From contig NZ_VKOG01000001.1 of assembly GCF_007474545.1 (NCBI RefSeq), positions 1,116,001 to 1,180,000 of the forward strand: a stretch of DNA of 64,000 bases, given 5' to 3'. The DNA is from Chryseobacterium binzhouense (lineage in GTDB: Bacteria > Bacteroidota > Bacteroidia > Flavobacteriales > Weeksellaceae). Position 1 is the stretch's first letter, and the number at the start of each line of letters is the position of its first letter. Of this stretch, positions 12,449-19,630 are shown piece after piece. The notes below the pieces were generated by a model, which made no database searches, was not told the DNA's origin, and worked only from the letters and a program-made list of their open reading frames with translations. The translations under genes were made by a program, and so were the position numbers.

Positions 12449-15280
12449 ATGAGTAAATCAACAGAATATATAGAAGTTTACGGTGCACGTGAACACAATC
12501 TTAAAAACATCAATGTAAAAATTCCGCGCAACGAATTGGTCGTTATTACCGGGCTTTCCGGCAGTGGAAAATCCTCACTGGCTTTCGACACCATTTTTGC
12601 TGAAGGTCAACGCCGATACATTGAAACTTTTTCTGCTTACGCAAGGCAGTTTTTAGGCGGGCTGGAACGTCCTGATGTAGATAAAATTGAAGGACTGTCT
12701 CCTGTAATTGCCATCGAACAGAAAACCACCAACAAGAATCCACGTTCTACCGTAGGAACGGTTACTGAACTGTACGACTTTCTCCGACTTTTATTCGCAA
12801 GGGTTTCAGATGCATATTCACAGACTACCGGAAAAAAACTGGTAAGCTATACCGAAGATCAGATTCTGGAAACCATCAAACAAAATTATAAAGGCGAAAA
12901 AATTATGCTGATGGCTCCCGTGGTGCGTTCCAGAAAAGGACATTACCATGAGCTTTTCGTACAGATGGCAAAAAAAGGTTACGGACAGGCAAGAATTGAC
13001 GGCGAATTGCAGGATATTGAATACGATCTGAAACTTGACCGTTATAAAACCCACGATATTGACATCGTAATCGACCGCTGGATTATTGGAGAAAGTGCTT
13101 CTGAAGCCAGAATGGAAAAATCTCTACGTACCGCCATGGAAATGGGAGAGGGCTTGATCGGCATTCAGAAATTAGGCAGCAATGAGATAGAATATTTTTC
13201 TAAAAATCTGATGGATGCAGAAACCGGTCATTCTTTGGCATTGCCGGAACCGAATACGTTTTCTTTTAATTCACCGAAAGGAAGCTGTCCCAATTGCAAA
13301 GGTTTGGGAACCATCAAAAAAATCAATACCGATTATTTTGTTGAAAATCCTAAATTATCAATTAATCAGGGAGGTTTGCTGCCTTTGGAAGATATTAAAT
13401 CAAACAAATATATTCTTTCCCAAATTAAAAATATTCTGGAAATCTTTGGACTGGATTTATCAACAGCTTTCAAAGATATACCGGAAGAGGCGCTGGATTA
13501 TATTTACAACGGATGTCATAAAGAATTCAATAAAGATCTTAAATACGCAGGAATTACCAAAAAGATAAAGGTAAGTTTTGATGGGCTGATTCCTTTCATG
13601 GAAGAAATCATTGAGGAACGAGAATCTTATGAAGCCATCATGCTGGAAAGACATTTTACAACGGAAGAAACCTGTCCGGTATGTAAAGGAACCCGTCTTC
13701 AGCAGGGAAGTCTGAGTTTTAAAATTGATGGAAAAAATATTGCGGAAGTCAATGCTTTGAGTTTAATTGATCTAAAAGAATGGCTTGCTGACGTAAAAGA
13801 TAAATTTTCTGAGAAAAATAAAATTATTGCTCATGAAATTTTAAAGGAAATAGAAACCAGATTGCAGTTCTTGTTGGATGTAGGTCTGGATTACCTGAGT
13901 CTGAGCAGAAGTTCCAGAACGCTTTCCGGTGGAGAATCCCAAAGAATCCGCCTTGCAACACAGATCGGTTCGCAGCTGGTAAATGTTCTTTATATTTTAG
14001 ACGAGCCAAGTATCGGGTTGCATCAAAGGGACAACGAAAGGTTGATTAATTCATTGAAAAATCTTCGTGACATCGGAAATTCCGTTTTGGTGGTAGAACA
14101 TGATAAAGACATGATTCTGGAAGCTGATGAAGTTTTAGATATTGGTCCGAGAGCCGGGAAATTTGGCGGAGAAATTCTTTGGCAGGGAAAACCTGAAGAT
14201 CTGGTAAAAGCTGATACGATTACAGCGCAATACATCAACGGAAAAAGAAAAATAGAAATTCCTGCGGAAAGACGAAAAGGAAATGGTAAAAATATTGTGT
14301 TAAAAGGTGCAACCGGAAACAATCTTAAAAATGTTACGCTTGATATTCCTTTAGGAAAACTGGTGGTGGTTTCAGGGATCTCCGGAAGTGGAAAATCTTC
14401 ATTGATCAACGGAACTTTGTATCCTATTCTTAACAAGCATTTTTACAGAGCTGTTCAGGAACCTTTGCCGTATAAAAAAATTGAAGGTCTTGATAATATT
14501 GATAAAATAGTAGATGTAGACCAGACTCCGATTGGAAGAACCCCACGTTCAAATCCTGCAACCTATACAGGAATGTTTACCGATATCCGAAATCTTTTTG
14601 CCGAATTGCCGGAATCTAAAATCCGAGGCTACAAGCCGGGAAGATTTTCTTTCAACGTAAAAGGCGGAAGATGCGAAACCTGTCAGGGAGGCGGTTTGAA
14701 GGTTATTGAGATGAATTTTTTACCCGATGTGTATGTTCACTGTGAAACCTGCAACGGAAAACGTTTCAACAGAGAAACGCTGGAAGTCCGTTACAAAGGG
14801 AAATCAATTTCTGATGTATTGGAGATGACGATTGATGAAGCCGTAGAGTTTTTCCAGCCGATTCCTAAAATTTTCGCAAAAGTAAAAACGCTGCATGATG
14901 TAGGATTAGGATACATTACTCTTGGACAGCAGTCTACCACGCTTTCGGGAGGCGAAGCGCAGCGTATCAAGCTGGCAACAGAACTTTCGAAAAGGCAGAC
15001 CGGAAACACTTTATATATTCTTGATGAACCGACAACCGGACTTCATTTTGAAGATGTAAAAATTCTGATGGAAGCCATTAATAAACTAGTTGAATTGGGC
15101 AACTCATTCATTATTATTGAACATAATATGGATGTCATTAAATTGGCAGATCATATCATCGACGTGGGTCCAGAAGGTGGAAAACACGGCGGACAAATTG
15201 TTGCACAGGGGACACCTGAGGAAATTGTAAAGTCTAAGAAGAGTTTGACGGGGAAGTTTTTGAAAAAGGAAATGGAATGA
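12449..15280 (+). CDS. uvrA: excinuclease ABC subunit A
   Basis: 943 residues. The damage-recognition ATPase of nucleotide excision repair, which loads UvrB on DNA. It has two ABC modules: Walker [15 protein letters not shown] near residue 33 and [14 protein letters not shown] in the second half, signatures [14 protein letters not shown] and [14 protein letters not shown], and Walker B segments [10 protein letters not shown] and [10 protein letters not shown]. The zinc-finger cysteines are present ([32 protein letters not shown]). Length is normal. It is followed by the repeat-bearing accessory island. Confidence 0.97.
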
Positions 15281-15304
15281 TAATATTTCCTTTTTTAACA
15301 TTTC

Positions 15305-15370
15305 ATTACCACTCTTCGTTTTGTTTTGCTCGTAAAGACTCGCTGCTTTTATTAGGAGGAGCAAAACAAA
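15305..15370. repeat. palindromic repeat, degenerate copy upstream of the GIY-YIG pseudogene
   Basis: TTTGTTTTGCTC (15320-15331) is exactly matched by GAGCAAAACAAA (15359-15370). The left part (CCAC.CTTCG...GCTCG.AAAGAC..GCTG) aligns in the same order with the element at 15723, so the two are diverged copies of one repeat in direct orientation flanking the broken GIY-YIG gene. Confidence 0.6.
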
Positions 15371-15398
15371 TAACTAAGTAATCCAAAGAATAAATACT

Positions 15399-15717
15399 AT
15401 GAGCCCGGTTTTATATATATTCTTACAAACAAAAATCACACAACCCTATATGTAGGAGCTACCTCACATATTGTTCAAAGAATCAACCAGCATAAAGACA
15501 AAATTTTTGAAAAGAGTTTTACGGCAATGTATAATTTAAACAAATTAGTTTACTATGAAGCTTTTCAGGAAATTGGTGATGCAATTAGTAGAGAAAAACA
15601 AATAAAAGGTGGCTCTCGTCAAAAGAAACTTGATTTAATCAATTCTAAAATCCAGAATGGCAATATTTGTATGATGAGATTATTGAAAATTATTCCAATC
15701 TAAATTTTCCTTTTTAG
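15399..15717 (+). pseudogene. GIY-YIG nuclease, inactivated by two one-base deletions
   Basis: The small single-domain GIY-YIG protein (about 100 residues, UvrC N-terminus-like) is readable only by changing frame twice. ATG at 15399 is followed by AGCCCGG; the nuclease frame begins one base out of register (GFIYILTNK, TTLYVGATS, REKQIKGGSRQKK, 15407 onward), as if one A were lost from ATGAAG. Near 15650 an AAAA run (family expectation about five A) shifts the frame again; past it the usual ending NPEWQYLYDEIIENY resumes and stops at the TAG at 15715. Tyr and Arg landmarks of the fold are intact, so the decay is recent, or the deletions are sequencing errors. Confidence 0.75.
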
Positions 15718-15722
15718 ATTTG

Positions 15723-15808
15723 GATTGCCACGCTTCACTTCGTTTCGCTCGCAAAGACGAGTCGCTGTCATTGCGAGTCTCGGAACGGAGTGAAGAGAAG
15801 AAGCAATC
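15723..15808. repeat. REP-like imperfect palindrome (CATTGCGAG type)
   Basis: An 86-base element: GATTGC at one end and GCAATC at the other, CTTCACT against AGTGAAG, and CTCGCAA against TTGCGAG, nested in the right order. It contains CATTGCGAG, the core of a repeat widely dispersed in flavobacterial genomes. It begins 6 bases after the GIY-YIG pseudogene stop. Confidence 0.7.
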
Positions 15809-15845
15809 TTCTAAATAAAATTCTGTAAACTGAGATAAATTACGG

Positions 15846-15874
15846 AAAACCACAATTCTAGTTGTGGTTTTTTT
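15846..15874 (+). terminator. hairpin terminator ahead of the defence operon
   Basis: AAAACCACAA (15846-15855) pairs perfectly with TTGTGGTTTT (15862-15871) and is followed by a T-run. It shields the operon that follows from upstream transcription. Confidence 0.75.
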
Positions 15875-15877
15875 ATT

Positions 15878-15885
15878 TACATTTG
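15878..15885 (+). promoter_or_regulatory. promoter -7 box of the ATPase/HNH operon
   Basis: TACATTTG matches TAnnTTTG and lies 16 bases before the ATPase ATG, directly after the terminator hairpin. The position expected for the -33 element falls inside that hairpin. Confidence 0.55.
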
Positions 15886-15901
15886 AGGAAAGCGAATAAA
15901 C

Positions 15902-17818
15902 ATGAGACTTGCAGCTGTTTATGTAAAAGAACACTTCTTATTTTCTGAACCGCAAACCATAAATTTAGGTGGAAAATATCTCTACACCATTATTCCAAGA
16001 AAAGGAACAGAAAATGAATACGATATTACAAGAGTAGAAAACCTAAATTTTATAAAGGGATTTTGGGGAGAAAATATTTCTTTGGTTTCTGCTATTGTTG
16101 GAGAGAATGGAGCAGGAAAAACGAGTGTCTTAAAAGAGTTTTGCACTTATGAAAATAATTATCCTAATACCTTTTTTATTTGGGAAGAAAACGAAGAAAT
16201 GAGTTTTACACAAATATATTATAATTCTAATACAAGAAATAAAGTTAAATTATTTGAAAACAATTTTTCAATAAATGATAAAAGTAATGAAATTTTAAAA
16301 GAGACACAACAAATATGTTTCAGTCCTTTTTTTGACTATGATATTGAGAAAGTCTTAGGAAACGGTTATTACTCTCGATATATAAATAGATTGAATAATA
16401 TAAATTCATTTGATATGTTAAATAAAGGAGGCATTACTGTTAAAACATTATTTCTAACTTTTGGAAATCTTTTAAATGAAAATGATCCTATAGATTTGAT
16501 GTCATTTATAAATAATGATACAATAAAAAACGTTAAATTTTGTGAAAAATTTAATGAATTTAAAGAAAAATTTGGTTTTTTAGATTATAATTTGGTTTTT
16601 ACAAATTCATTTATTTCTGATGAAAAAACATTTGATTTTTATCGTTTAAGTAAAGGTGAAAAAGAAGATATTAATTACACTCAAGATTATTTAAAAAAAG
16701 CTTTTGATTCAAATGAAAAAGAGCTTATAATAAGATATTATGATTTGAAATTTTTTCTACAGGATAAGATGAATTACTATTCAGAACGTTTTGTTTCTGA
16801 TTTTTATGCAAATTTAATTATTTATATAGATTATTATTTTGATGGTTTTCATGATTCCGTTTTAGCAAAAGTAAATGAAAGCAACAATATTAATCTTGAC
16901 AAAATAATAAGAGAATTATTAGCTGAAAGACAAAACAATATTTCAGAAAAAATTTTAGATTTATACAGTACTTTGTATAATGACGAAAGTAGTGGAAGAA
17001 TTGATCTTAAAACTATTATTAATGAATTTTATCATTATAAAAGAGCTGATGCTATTAAGATAATTAAATTGCAAAAGGAAATTTCTAATCTATATAAAAA
17101 GGGTGAAAATGCTGTTGCTGAAAAAAAATTATTGTATTATTATCCAGATAGAGTTTTATCATCGGGAGAAAAAACAATGATTAATCTATTTGCAACAATT
17201 TTTCATCCTGTTTCTGAATATATAAATAATGTAAAAGATATTGATAATCCTTTAAAAAATATAAAAAATATAATTCTCCTTTTAGATGAAGCTGATTTAG
17301 GATTTCATCCACAATGGAAGAAAAAATATGTTAAAATTCTTACGGATTTTTTACCAATAATGTTTGCAGAAATCCCAGGTTTTGAAAGTGTACAAATTAT
17401 TTTCACTACACACGATCCTTTAACATTGTCAGACATTCCCAATAGCAATGTTGTTTATTTAAAAAAAGAAGGAGAAAAAACAAAAGTTCTTAGCCAAAAT
17501 GAAAAACCTAAAAAATCTTTTGGAGCCAACATTACCGATTTATTAGCAGATAGTTTTTTTATAAATGATGGCTTGATTGGAGATTTTGCAAAAGGGAAGA
17601 TTGAGGAAGTGATTAAATTTCTGAAGAAAGAAAAATCAGAAATTAATTCTAAAGAAGAGTGTAAAAAAATAATCGAACTGATTGATGAGCCTTTAATGCG
17701 AGAAAAATTATTGGAAATGTATTATGAAGCTTTTGATGAAGAAAAATTAAAGGAAAAAGAATTGAAAATCTTAGAAGAATTGGCAAAAAAACATAATAAA
17801 AAAATTACAGATGCTTAA
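15902..17818 (+). CDS. AAA (ABC/OLD-like) ATPase of a Septu-type defence pair
   Basis: 638 residues. ATP-binding parts are complete: Walker A GENGAGKTS (residues 67-75), an ABC-like signature LSSGEK (419-424), Walker B ILLLDEAD (about 458-465) with LGFHPQW, and the switch His504 in TTHDP. About 340 mostly helical residues separate the two halves, as in SMC/RecF/OLD-like ATPases. The C-terminus is highly charged and helical. It overlaps the HNH gene by 8 bases, the arrangement of PtuA with PtuB in Septu anti-phage systems. Base composition is far below its neighbours (12 of 60 G+C in 16441-16500). Septu is the best guess; the ATPase/HNH pair of some retrons is the alternative, but no reverse transcriptase is nearby. 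Confidence 0.8.
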   Translation: MRLAAVYVKEHFLFSEPQTINLGGKYLYTIIPRKGTENEYDITRVENLNFIKGFWGENISLVSAIVGENGAGKTSVLKEFCTYENNYPNTFFIWEENEEMSFTQIYYNSNTRNKVKLFENNFSINDKSNEILKETQQICFSPFFDYDIEKVLGNGYYSRYINRLNNINSFDMLNKGGITVKTLFLTFGNLLNENDPIDLMSFINNDTIKNVKFCEKFNEFKEKFGFLDYNLVFTNSFISDEKTFDFYRLSKGEKEDINYTQDYLKKAFDSNEKELIIRYYDLKFFLQDKMNYYSERFVSDFYANLIIYIDYYFDGFHDSVLAKVNESNNINLDKIIRELLAERQNNISEKILDLYSTLYNDESSGRIDLKTIINEFYHYKRADAIKIIKLQKEISNLYKKGENAVAEKKLLYYYPDRVLSSGEKTMINLFATIFHPVSEYINNVKDIDNPLKNIKNIILLLDEADLGFHPQWKKKYVKILTDFLPIMFAEIPGFESVQIIFTTHDPLTLSDIPNSNVVYLKKEGEKTKVLSQNEKPKKSFGANITDLLADSFFINDGLIGDFAKGKIEEVIKFLKKEKSEINSKEECKKIIELIDEPLMREKLLEMYYEAFDEEKLKEKELKILEELAKKHNKKITDA

Positions 17819-18749
17819 AATTAATCCAACACAAGAAGCATTAGATTTTCACTACGAAAAAGTTTCTAAAATATTTGATAAAATAATTAATAGGGATATT
17901 GGAAATGGATTATTAGAAGACACTACAATTAAATTTATTAAAGGATATAAAAACATTCTTATAAAAGGAAAACCAGAATTACTTTTGAAAGTTCATCAGA
18001 AATTCAATAGAATAATTACAAATCAGGACTTTGAAAATTTGAAAACTTGTTTTAATAGAGCTTATGAAAATCAATTGCAAAAAAAACATGGTAAAGAATT
18101 TTTAGAAAAACTTAAAATAGATACTTGCATATATTGTAACAGAAATTACACCTTATATTTTGATGGAAATTTTGCAAGAGCAGAATTAGACCATTGGTTT
18201 CCGAAAGAAAAATTTCCTCTTTTAGCATTAAGTTTTTATAATTTAATCCCGAGTTGTCATTCTTGTAACCATAAAAAAGGAAATGGAGATAAAATAATTA
18301 AATCTAAATTCTTATATAATGAAAATGCTACCAATATTGAAATTCAAAACTGGTGGAATAATAAAGCATTGACAAAATTAATACATCCATATTCTAATAA
18401 AATTGATTTTAATTTCAGTTATAATGTGGAAGGTATAAATACATATAGCTCGAAGATTAAAGTCCAAAAAGATTCAATATCAGAAGAAACACTTAAGTTT
18501 AACAAAACAAAAGAAATCTACAGTGCCCACTCCAATAAAGAACTAAAAGATCTATTGGATTTGCGCTACAAATACTCAAAAAACTATTTAGACATTCTTT
18601 GTAATAAAACTTTTGAAGGATTAAATTTATCACAAGAAGAAGCGTACAGAATGATTTTCGGTATCGAAATCAACGAAGAAGATTACCATAAAAGACCTTT
18701 CTCAAAATTTAAACATGATATCATTGAAGAACTTAAAAAAAGTTTTTAA
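17811..18749 (+). CDS. HNH endonuclease of a Septu-type defence pair
   Basis: 312 residues. The nuclease core is a zinc-type HNH: CIYC (Cys106, Cys109), then LDHWFPK (Asp127, His128), then NLIPSCHSCNHKKG (Asn144, Cys149, Cys152, Asn153, His154). This matches the PtuB-like/TIGR02646-type layout. The N-terminal 100 residues are helical and probably bind the ATPase. The C-terminal 150 have no motif I know. The start codon overlaps the ATPase stop (ATGCTTAA), so translation is likely coupled. Expected role: DNA or nucleic-acid cutting released when the ATPase senses phage. Strongly AT-rich like its partner. Confidence 0.8.
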   Translation: MLKINPTQEALDFHYEKVSKIFDKIINRDIGNGLLEDTTIKFIKGYKNILIKGKPELLLKVHQKFNRIITNQDFENLKTCFNRAYENQLQKKHGKEFLEKLKIDTCIYCNRNYTLYFDGNFARAELDHWFPKEKFPLLALSFYNLIPSCHSCNHKKGNGDKIIKSKFLYNENATNIEIQNWWNNKALTKLIHPYSNKIDFNFSYNVEGINTYSSKIKVQKDSISEETLKFNKTKEIYSAHSNKELKDLLDLRYKYSKNYLDILCNKTFEGLNLSQEEAYRMIFGIEINEEDYHKRPFSKFKHDIIEELKKSF

Positions 18750-18770
18750 AATAATTTGAATTAGTATAAA

Positions 18771-18797
18771 AAAATCCGTCATCAAATGACGGATTTT
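18771..18797. terminator. bidirectional terminator
   Basis: AAAATCCGTCAT and ATGACGGATTTT are perfect 12-base complements around CAA. It closes the ATPase/HNH operon on the plus strand and fabI on the minus strand. Confidence 0.88.
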
Positions 18798-18820
18798 ATA
18801 TTTATAAACAAAAACAGAAA

Positions 18821-19630
18821 TTATTCTGTATCGTATTTGCTGATTACTTTTTGGGTAACTCCGGAGCTGCTGAATCCACCGTCGTGGAAAAGATTCTGCA
18901 TCGTAACTTTTTTGGTAAGATCTGAGAAAAGCGTTACACAGTAATCTGCACATTCCAAAGCAGTTGCGTTACCAAGAGGAGACATATCTTCGGCATAACC
19001 TAGAAAACCACCAAAACCTTTCACACCGCTTCCTGCTGTGGTTGGAGTAGGAGACTGGGATACAGTGTTGACACGCACTTTTCTTTCTCCCCAATAGTTT
19101 CCGAAAGTTCTTGCAATGCTTTCAAGATAAGCTTTGTTATCAGACATATCGTTATAATCCGGAAATGTTCTCTGAGCAGCAATATAAGTAAGTGCTAAAA
19201 TACTTCCCCATTCATTCATACAGTCTTTTTCGTACGCTACTCTCATTACTTTGTGGAAAGAAACAGCAGAGATGTCCCATCCTTTTTCCAACCAGTCATA
19301 GTTCATTTCTGTGTAATGTTTACCTTTTCTTACGTTGATAGACATTCCTATGGAGTGTAGAATAAAATCAATCTTACCAAATTTTGCGATAGCGGCATCA
19401 AAAAGCTTTTCAAGATCTTCAATAGAAGTTGCATCTGCACCAATTACTTCCGAGCCAGTTTTTTCTGCTAATCCGTTTAGCTCGCCCATTCTCAGAGCGA
19501 TGGGAGCATTAGATAAAATGAATTCAGCACCTTCTTCGTGGCATCTTTCAGCAACTTTCCATGCGATAGATTGTTCATTAAGGGCTCCAAAAATAATTCC
19601 CTTCTTGCCTTTAAGTAAACCGTATGACAT
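18821..19630 (-). CDS. fabI: enoyl-[acyl-carrier-protein] reductase (FabI)
   Basis: 269 residues. NAD(P)H-dependent reduction of trans-2-enoyl-ACP, the last step of each fatty-acid elongation cycle. A short-chain dehydrogenase of the FabI type: glycine-rich IIFGALNEQSIAW, GADATSIEDL, ILHSIGMS, the active-site Y-x6-K in YNDMSDNK, and VRVNTVSQSP. The family is the target of triclosan and related inhibitors. It is a single gene with its own promoter box upstream and a terminator shared with the defence operon. Confidence 0.95.
   Translation of the reverse strand: MSYGLLKGKKGIIFGALNEQSIAWKVAERCHEEGAEFILSNAPIALRMGELNGLAEKTGSEVIGADATSIEDLEKLFDAAIAKFGKIDFILHSIGMSINVRKGKHYTEMNYDWLEKGWDISAVSFHKVMRVAYEKDCMNEWGSILALTYIAAQRTFPDYNDMSDNKAYLESIARTFGNYWGERKVRVNTVSQSPTPTTAGSGVKGFGGFLGYAEDMSPLGNATALECADYCVTLFSDLTKKVTMQNLFHDGGFSSSGVTQKVISKYDTE

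Follow-up and report, generated by a model that had tools for sequence, protein, structure and literature searches.

The stretch analyzed here, 64,000 nucleotides of the Chryseobacterium binzhouense genome (assembly GCF_007474545.1, contig NZ_VKOG01000001.1, forward-strand positions 1,116,001 to 1,180,000; "the window"), carries between uvrA and fabI a two-gene operon that, by its sequence, is a member of PDC-M62, a catalogued candidate family allied to Septu. On the forward strand, a PtuA-like ATPase of 638 aa (PDC-M62A, 15902..17818) is followed by a PtuB-like HNH nuclease of 312 aa (PDC-M62B, 17811..18749); the two open reading frames (ORFs) overlap by 8 nt, just as an earlier sequence-only reading of this DNA had described. 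The motifs named there are present as well: in the ATPase, GENGAGKTS at 67-75 (Walker A, K73), LSSGEK at 419-424 (signature, S420/G422), DEAD at 462-465 (Walker B, D462-E463) and the switch histidine of TH504, together with a variable middle at about 76-410; in the nuclease, CIYC at 106-109, LDHWFPK at 126-132 and NLIPSCHSCNHKKG at 144-157, with a conserved tail, KRPFSKFKHDI, at 294-304. Across an alignment of 81 nucleases, that of the window among them, C106, C109, D127, H128, N144, C149, C152 and N153 are invariant, and we take the four cysteines (106/109/149/152) to have a zinc role. H154, previously singled out for mutation alongside H128, is not among them: it is neither invariant nor at 90% in the 81 aligned nucleases, and it falls below 80% among a set of 58.

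The operon lies behind uvrA (12449..15280, + strand), from which it is separated by a spacer of ~550 bp (15285..15837) containing a fragment of a GIY-YIG domain (frame 15434-15700; PF01541, 1.1e-11) and ~130 bp that also occur, diverged, in G081, the closest relative found (alignment to locus L112). Its 5' edge is marked by a terminator-like leader hairpin of 13 bp plus a T run (15844..15873, + strand; -13.4 kcal/mol, z -4.87), which is conserved at this edge of the cassettes, and by a match to TAnnTTTG, presumably the Bacteroidota -7 consensus (TACATTTG, 15878..15885, + strand), that starts 24 nt before the ATG, leaves the 16 nt between box and ATG noted earlier and is a predicted promoter element. 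A 12-bp end hairpin (18771..18797), called on both strands, stands between the pair and the convergent fabI (18821..19630, - strand). Both flanking terminators proposed previously are thus present, and the terminator-like calls number three (the end hairpin being counted on both strands) vs 0.8 +/- 1.0 in shuffles; sigma-70-type sites showed no excess (19 vs 23.2 expected by chance), and an Rfam scan of 15200-18900 at E up to 1 gave no match.

Two features had been read as signs of an acquired element, and neither serves that purpose. The low G+C content is real (24.6% at 15838-18757 vs 35.1% in the rest of the window, the cassette region being the lowest-G+C 2.9-kb stretch in steps of 100), but in 77 of 80 PDC-M62 loci the operon has a lower G+C than its flanks (mean 28.9 vs 36.2%), so that it is a trait of the family and is rejected as evidence of recent transfer. 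The supposed dispersed repeats beside the cassette were not found: across the genome, nothing reached E<=0.001 as a second copy of 15700-15840 (28 first-look candidates), its only counterpart being the diverged copy at the same place in G081.

The comparison with PADLOC models that the sequence-only reading had proposed matched both proteins, with PDC-M62 best in each case. The ATPase aligns with PDC-M62A (PDLC04735, 7.3e-64) over residues 1-628 on model positions 1-620 of 633 and the nuclease with PDC-M62B (PDLC04743, 2.3e-38) over residues 1-310 on 1-325 of 328, its C-terminus included, which had been thought to resemble nothing known. The PADLOC 2023 library thus already holds the family at full length, and we therefore reject the suggestion of a new subtype. 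The gene adjacency expected of PDC-M62 is likewise found, as the 8-nt overlap here and within 200 nt in all 80 related loci. The PADLOC PtuA and PtuB models (1.9e-21 and 7.7e-10) rank below those of PDC-M62, and since the PtuA/PtuB models are neither the best nor above curated cut-offs, the pair should not be filed as Septu itself; a restriction-associated ATPase model, TIGR04435, also scored under its cut-off (46.2 bits of 300). The predicted structures point to the same alliance: the ATPase has a PtuA-type fold with Walker A and B, and the nuclease a PtuB-type fold with its His-Asn pair 16 residues apart (H128/N144), comparable to H75/N91 of the reference PtuB (PMC13096335). The predicted nuclease aligns with PtuB out to residues 306-312, although just 188-206 of its 312 residues are aligned. 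In a Bacillus cereus survey (PMC11811056), PDC systems are described as unpublished candidates, 203 PDC-M62 calls duplicate Septu calls in the PADLOC output (Septu being kept), and PDC-M62 is among the candidates that DefenseFinder renamed.

Comparison of the uvrA-fabI interval with G081, whose flanking genes run collinear with those of the window (89.5-92% DNA identity), revealed an empty site. The stop-to-stop distance is 237 bp in G081 vs 3,540 in the window (246 bp between aligned ends), and the extra DNA of the window sits between the shared diverged stretch and the hairpin on the fabI side, where G081 has, by eye, a hairpin of other sequence. In four relatives with the pair at uvrA (loci L130, L178, L189 and L199), DNA homology starts at 15835-15844 and stops at 18749-18757, with internal gaps; since the G081 alignment and this homology both bound the region, we place the cassette limits at ~15838-18757 (about 2.9 kb). 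Judged from these alignments, close relatives differ in whether this site carries the operon, through either gain by the window or loss by G081. Elsewhere, G081 in turn has ~5 kb (L112, 594-5687) absent from the window, lying between its equivalents of window genes 22664 and 21540 and encoding a leucine-rich-looking protein (by eye), a 742-aa protein and a 613-aa protein.

The leader, comprising the hairpin and the promoter box, recurs in the genus, and almost always at uvrA. Its pattern, AACCACAA-N(3,9)-TTGTGGTTTTTTTATTTA, occurs in 12 of 174 Chryseobacterium genomes (reversed control, 0) and lies at uvrA in 11 of the 12, within tens of bases of the uvrA stop in ten; the window, with its 550-bp spacer, is the exception. 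Nine of the 11 leaders at uvrA precede a PDC-M62 pair (that of G164 being inferred from positions) and two (G159, G162) precede LRR-Roc-type proteins, the scanned G159 protein being LRR-Roc-COR-TIR, while G108 has a tenth PDC-M62 at uvrA, with a broken ATPase and without the exact leader. The twelfth leader (L268) is not at uvrA; it lies behind an ORF that by eye resembles an NADH dehydrogenase subunit, and its hairpin is probably a chance terminator. That this sequence is simply the general terminator of uvrA was rejected, as it occurs in only 12 of 174 genomes; other uvrA genes end in other hairpins (GAATTTG-type in 27 of 90).

A uvrA match was present in all 174 genomes; 3' neighbors were read in 90, chosen by order of uvrA similarity rather than at random and, in 30 cases, for 1.5 kb only. 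These comprised two PDC-M62 pairs, three LRR-Roc genes, one LRR-Roc remnant and two NACHT-type genes, along with 47 sites with some other first ORF and 35 without a 70-aa ORF starting within 240 nt. The large NLR-like genes stand directly behind uvrA (LRR-Roc at L310, L316 and L359; NACHT at L305 and L311); a TIR domain was present in both LRR-Roc proteins scanned (L310, L359), and the NACHT site at L305 has a near-identical leader. Taken together, at least 15 of the 174 genomes have immune-type genes at the uvrA 3' end (10 PDC-M62, 3 LRR-Roc, 2 NACHT), and one further site holds a remnant; these figures are minima, as not all 174 uvrA ends were read. Because the leader recurs there before either PDC-M62 pairs or LRR-Roc genes, we regard the uvrA 3' end as a variable "slot" for immune-type genes, albeit not one reserved for them, since most uvrA sites hold other genes or none.

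The pair itself is common but patchy. Of 174 genomes from the genus, 70 match PDC-M62B at E<=0.001, as do 28 of 395 from the phylum, some of these matches being short or weak. An ATPase ORF adjoins the nuclease in 59 of 60 fetched loci, upstream in 58 (in L128 the ATPase comes after the nuclease, L175 has only a remnant of the nuclease and no ATPase, and L176 duplicates L130); in a second set, retrieved from named genomes by nuclease motifs (best 80 of 187) and overlapping the first in many cases, it lies <=200 nt upstream in 80 of 80, a few being only fragments. At L127 (2418-7676), a single HNH gene lies between two PDC-M62-family ATPase genes in one orientation. The ATPase matched 28 plasmid records, all at <60% identity and none with 80% coverage. 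A scan of the genes beside PDC-M62 pairs covered 105 of 147 neighbors, the remainder being those at L241-L257, fragments of broken ATPases and several more. Of the 105, 5 (L178-L240) are type I restriction specificity proteins.

Within the operon, conservation changes abruptly from block to block. Between the window and G060 (L130), the ATPases are 79% identical in residues 1-75, 23% in 161-410 and 69% in 411-600, and the nucleases 17% in 1-100 (17%, 19% or 25% by different counting, of which we adopted the first) and 90% in 241-312. HNH 1-100 of the window is instead 63-65% identical to those of L173, L178 and L151, and the nearest HNH 101-160 is that of L180 from Flavobacterium soyangense (88%). 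A tree built from the conserved segments of 32 operons (ATPase 1-75, ATPase 411-600 and HNH 241-312) places the window with L130 and L148 (support 91/98, the group not being starred), whereas a tree of HNH 1-165 places it with L148, L151 and L173 (93/100) and L130 far away; the window and L148 group together in both. In approximately unbiased (AU) tests each data set rejects the grouping of the other (p 1.2e-5 and 3.8e-9), with the groups named after the trees had been seen and L130 a long branch in the HNH 1-165 tree. Across 53 operons, HNH 1-100 is <=30% identical in 22 of the 62 pairs whose HNH tails are >=75% identical. The main three segments of the ATPase vary together (0.60-0.66), and HNH 1-100 hardly tracks any ATPase segment (0.07-0.19), no coupling of the ATPase middle with the HNH N-terminus being seen (rank correlation 0.07). 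These comparisons support the view of the PDC-M62 operon as a mosaic whose modules appear to be exchanged between species. Among HNH segments the tail tracks ATPase 411-600 best (0.41 vs 0.16-0.25), a faint sign that the tail may dock on the ATPase.

It seems quite probable that this is a two-gene immune operon that works like the PtuAB of Septu and of type I-A retrons; by analogy with these, its function is likely abortive defense. The sequence basis for this is that the genes go together, the catalytic residues are intact, the predicted folds are those of PtuA and PtuB, the pair is distributed patchily, one and the same site is occupied or empty in close relatives, the leader is shared in an immune slot and the operon has recombined internally. 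Much of this evidence (family models, folds, patchy distribution, the empty site and the shared slot) also upholds the earlier proposal of a Septu-like islet between uvrA and fabI, so that the sequence-only interpretation as a whole is partly supported. In such a system, the ATPase heads would oligomerize with ATP and restrain the HNH subunit until a signal produced by the phage, or a drop in ATP, was perceived, probably by the variable middle of the ATPase, and the HNH domain was released; this would then cut nucleic acid, tRNA being somewhat likelier than DNA, and growth of the infected cell would stop before phage release. HNH 241-312 would probably be where the C-lobe of the ATPase docks, and HNH 1-100 would probably serve as an exchangeable target or control module.

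As to the target, it is reported that Septu EcB88 cleaves tRNA-Tyr and that retron-Eco7 PtuAB depletes tRNA-Tyr. RlaP-type genes (PF10127, RNA repair) flank the pair in four genus genomes (G004, G107, G157 and G173), with a 4-nt overlap between the HNH stop and the RlaP2 start in two of them and a distance of 1 nt in the other two, and in G091 RlaP lies 1.2 kb downstream of the pair (pairs read at L137, L150, L152, L155 and L173, RlaP loci at L362-L381). This neighborhood of other PDC-M62 members is a hint toward RNA. However, RlaP is widespread in Chryseobacterium (158 of 174 genomes), so the association may reflect a second variable slot rather than a functional link; of the 20 RlaP loci read, 5 have RlaP1 directly beside RlaP2, 13 have other genes between the two and 2 show no second RlaP.

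Several observations weigh against a PtuAB-like immune role. The NCBIfam scores for PtuA (46.2 of 500) and PtuB (23.8 of 150) are far under their cut-offs; in Foldseek, the top row for the ATPase by E-value is AriA of PARIS and not PtuA, with low TM-scores throughout (0.15-0.38); the prediction is poor in the middle of the ATPase (pLDDT below 50 at 142-193); and a profile of the 81 nucleases found one match among PDB sequences, at only 0.0015. The RlaP link concerns other members, the window genome having a single RlaP match (2e-6), and the targets of PtuAB vary: tRNA is probably not what retron-Eco4 acts on, and DNA cutting is cited for the Septu of E. coli ATCC 25922. Genes beside PDC-M62 pairs matched 384 PADLOC models vs 3 for the controls (50, one of which, fabI itself, was dropped), a weak control and a count of models that is inflated by many specificity models and includes mad3, which also matches UvrA. 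PDC-M62 relatives gave no match in phages and none was confirmed in two viral-contig scans, for which reason carriage of the pair by phage was rejected; no phage test of PDC-M62 was found in open-licence literature. In the fold comparison, moreover, the lowest PtuA rows tie with SMC heads. An anti-plasmid or general DNA-damage system, in which a Rad50/SMC-like ATPase and a nuclease act on something other than phage, is an unlikely though not negligible alternative.

Two further explanations seem less probable still. The pair could be the orphaned effectors of a type I-A retron, working with a reverse transcriptase and multicopy single-stranded DNA (msDNA) encoded elsewhere: its closest folds include retron I-A PtuA/PtuB, the nuclease weakly matches TIGR02646 (the NCBIfam retron HNH family, under cut-off), and the genome does have a reverse transcriptase ORF. 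That ORF, the only RVT_1 match in the genome, is on contig C9, whereas the window is on C1; the Rfam scan found nothing around the pair, although Rfam may not cover every retron RNA; and a leader and promoter box of its own precede the pair, so that we consider this very improbable. It is equally hard to credit that the HNH enzyme is a homing nuclease that cuts empty uvrA sites and thereby drives the spread of the cassette. HNH enzymes are common homing nucleases, and presence or absence at one site with a shared leader at uvrA is what such an element might leave; yet at L359 this slot, with this leader, is occupied by an LRR-Roc-COR-TIR gene that gives no HNH match in Pfam, just 10 of the 70 genus genomes matching PDC-M62B were seen to carry PDC-M62 at uvrA (not every other site being read), and homing enzymes are not known to have such an ATPase partner or a PtuB fold.

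Preferring, then, an immune operon of PtuAB type, we consider the finding sound and of an ordinary kind: the pair adds one more member, with a probably Septu-like mode of action, to a catalogued candidate family, and ties PDC-M62, a common family, to the PtuAB mechanism through fold and active site. Less ordinary are the uvrA slot with its shared leader and the modular, mosaic operon; these, with the empty site in the closest relative found, are what is new here, and neither slot nor mosaic was pointed to in the open-licence literature (titles and abstract starts). The uvrA 3' end in Chryseobacterium is thus a concrete place to seek further immune genes and, because natural alleles differ block by block, sensing and target choice in PtuAB-like systems could be compared without building variants. 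More speculatively, and with rather more doubt than belief, PDC-M62 might be a combinatorial immune system in which the ATPase and the N-terminal half of the HNH protein are shuffled independently of each other and the HNH tail (KRPxSKxxxDI), as the docking contact, remains matched to the ATPase C-lobe. Exchange would be anchored on the common leader and the conserved ATPase and HNH-tail blocks, and the uvrA 3' end would be a "plug-in socket" in which these cassettes take turns with LRR-Roc-COR-TIR and NACHT-type genes of immune kind behind one ~70-nt leader.

Among known systems, PDC-M62 is the defining family: both window proteins match its full-length models, and no excluding difference was found. 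With Septu the pair shares an ABC/SMC-type ATPase plus HNH, the same folds and the same His-Asn spacing, but its proteins are longer (638/312 aa vs 465 aa in 8ee4_A and 234 residues in the 8eea_G chain), the PtuA/PtuB models fit it much more weakly and the NCBIfam equivalog cut-offs are missed. The effectors of type I-A retrons (Ec78/Eco7, Ec83 PtuAB) are the nearest solved folds and presumably follow the same effector logic; in contrast to them, the window pair has no adjoining reverse transcriptase, and no msr-msd was seen in the Rfam scan. Polymorphic toxins join one conserved part by recombination to swapped parts, and the PDC-M62 pair likewise combines a constant part with parts swapped by recombination; the difference is that in the PDC-M62 nuclease it is the N-terminal half that is swapped and the C-terminal tail that stays constant.

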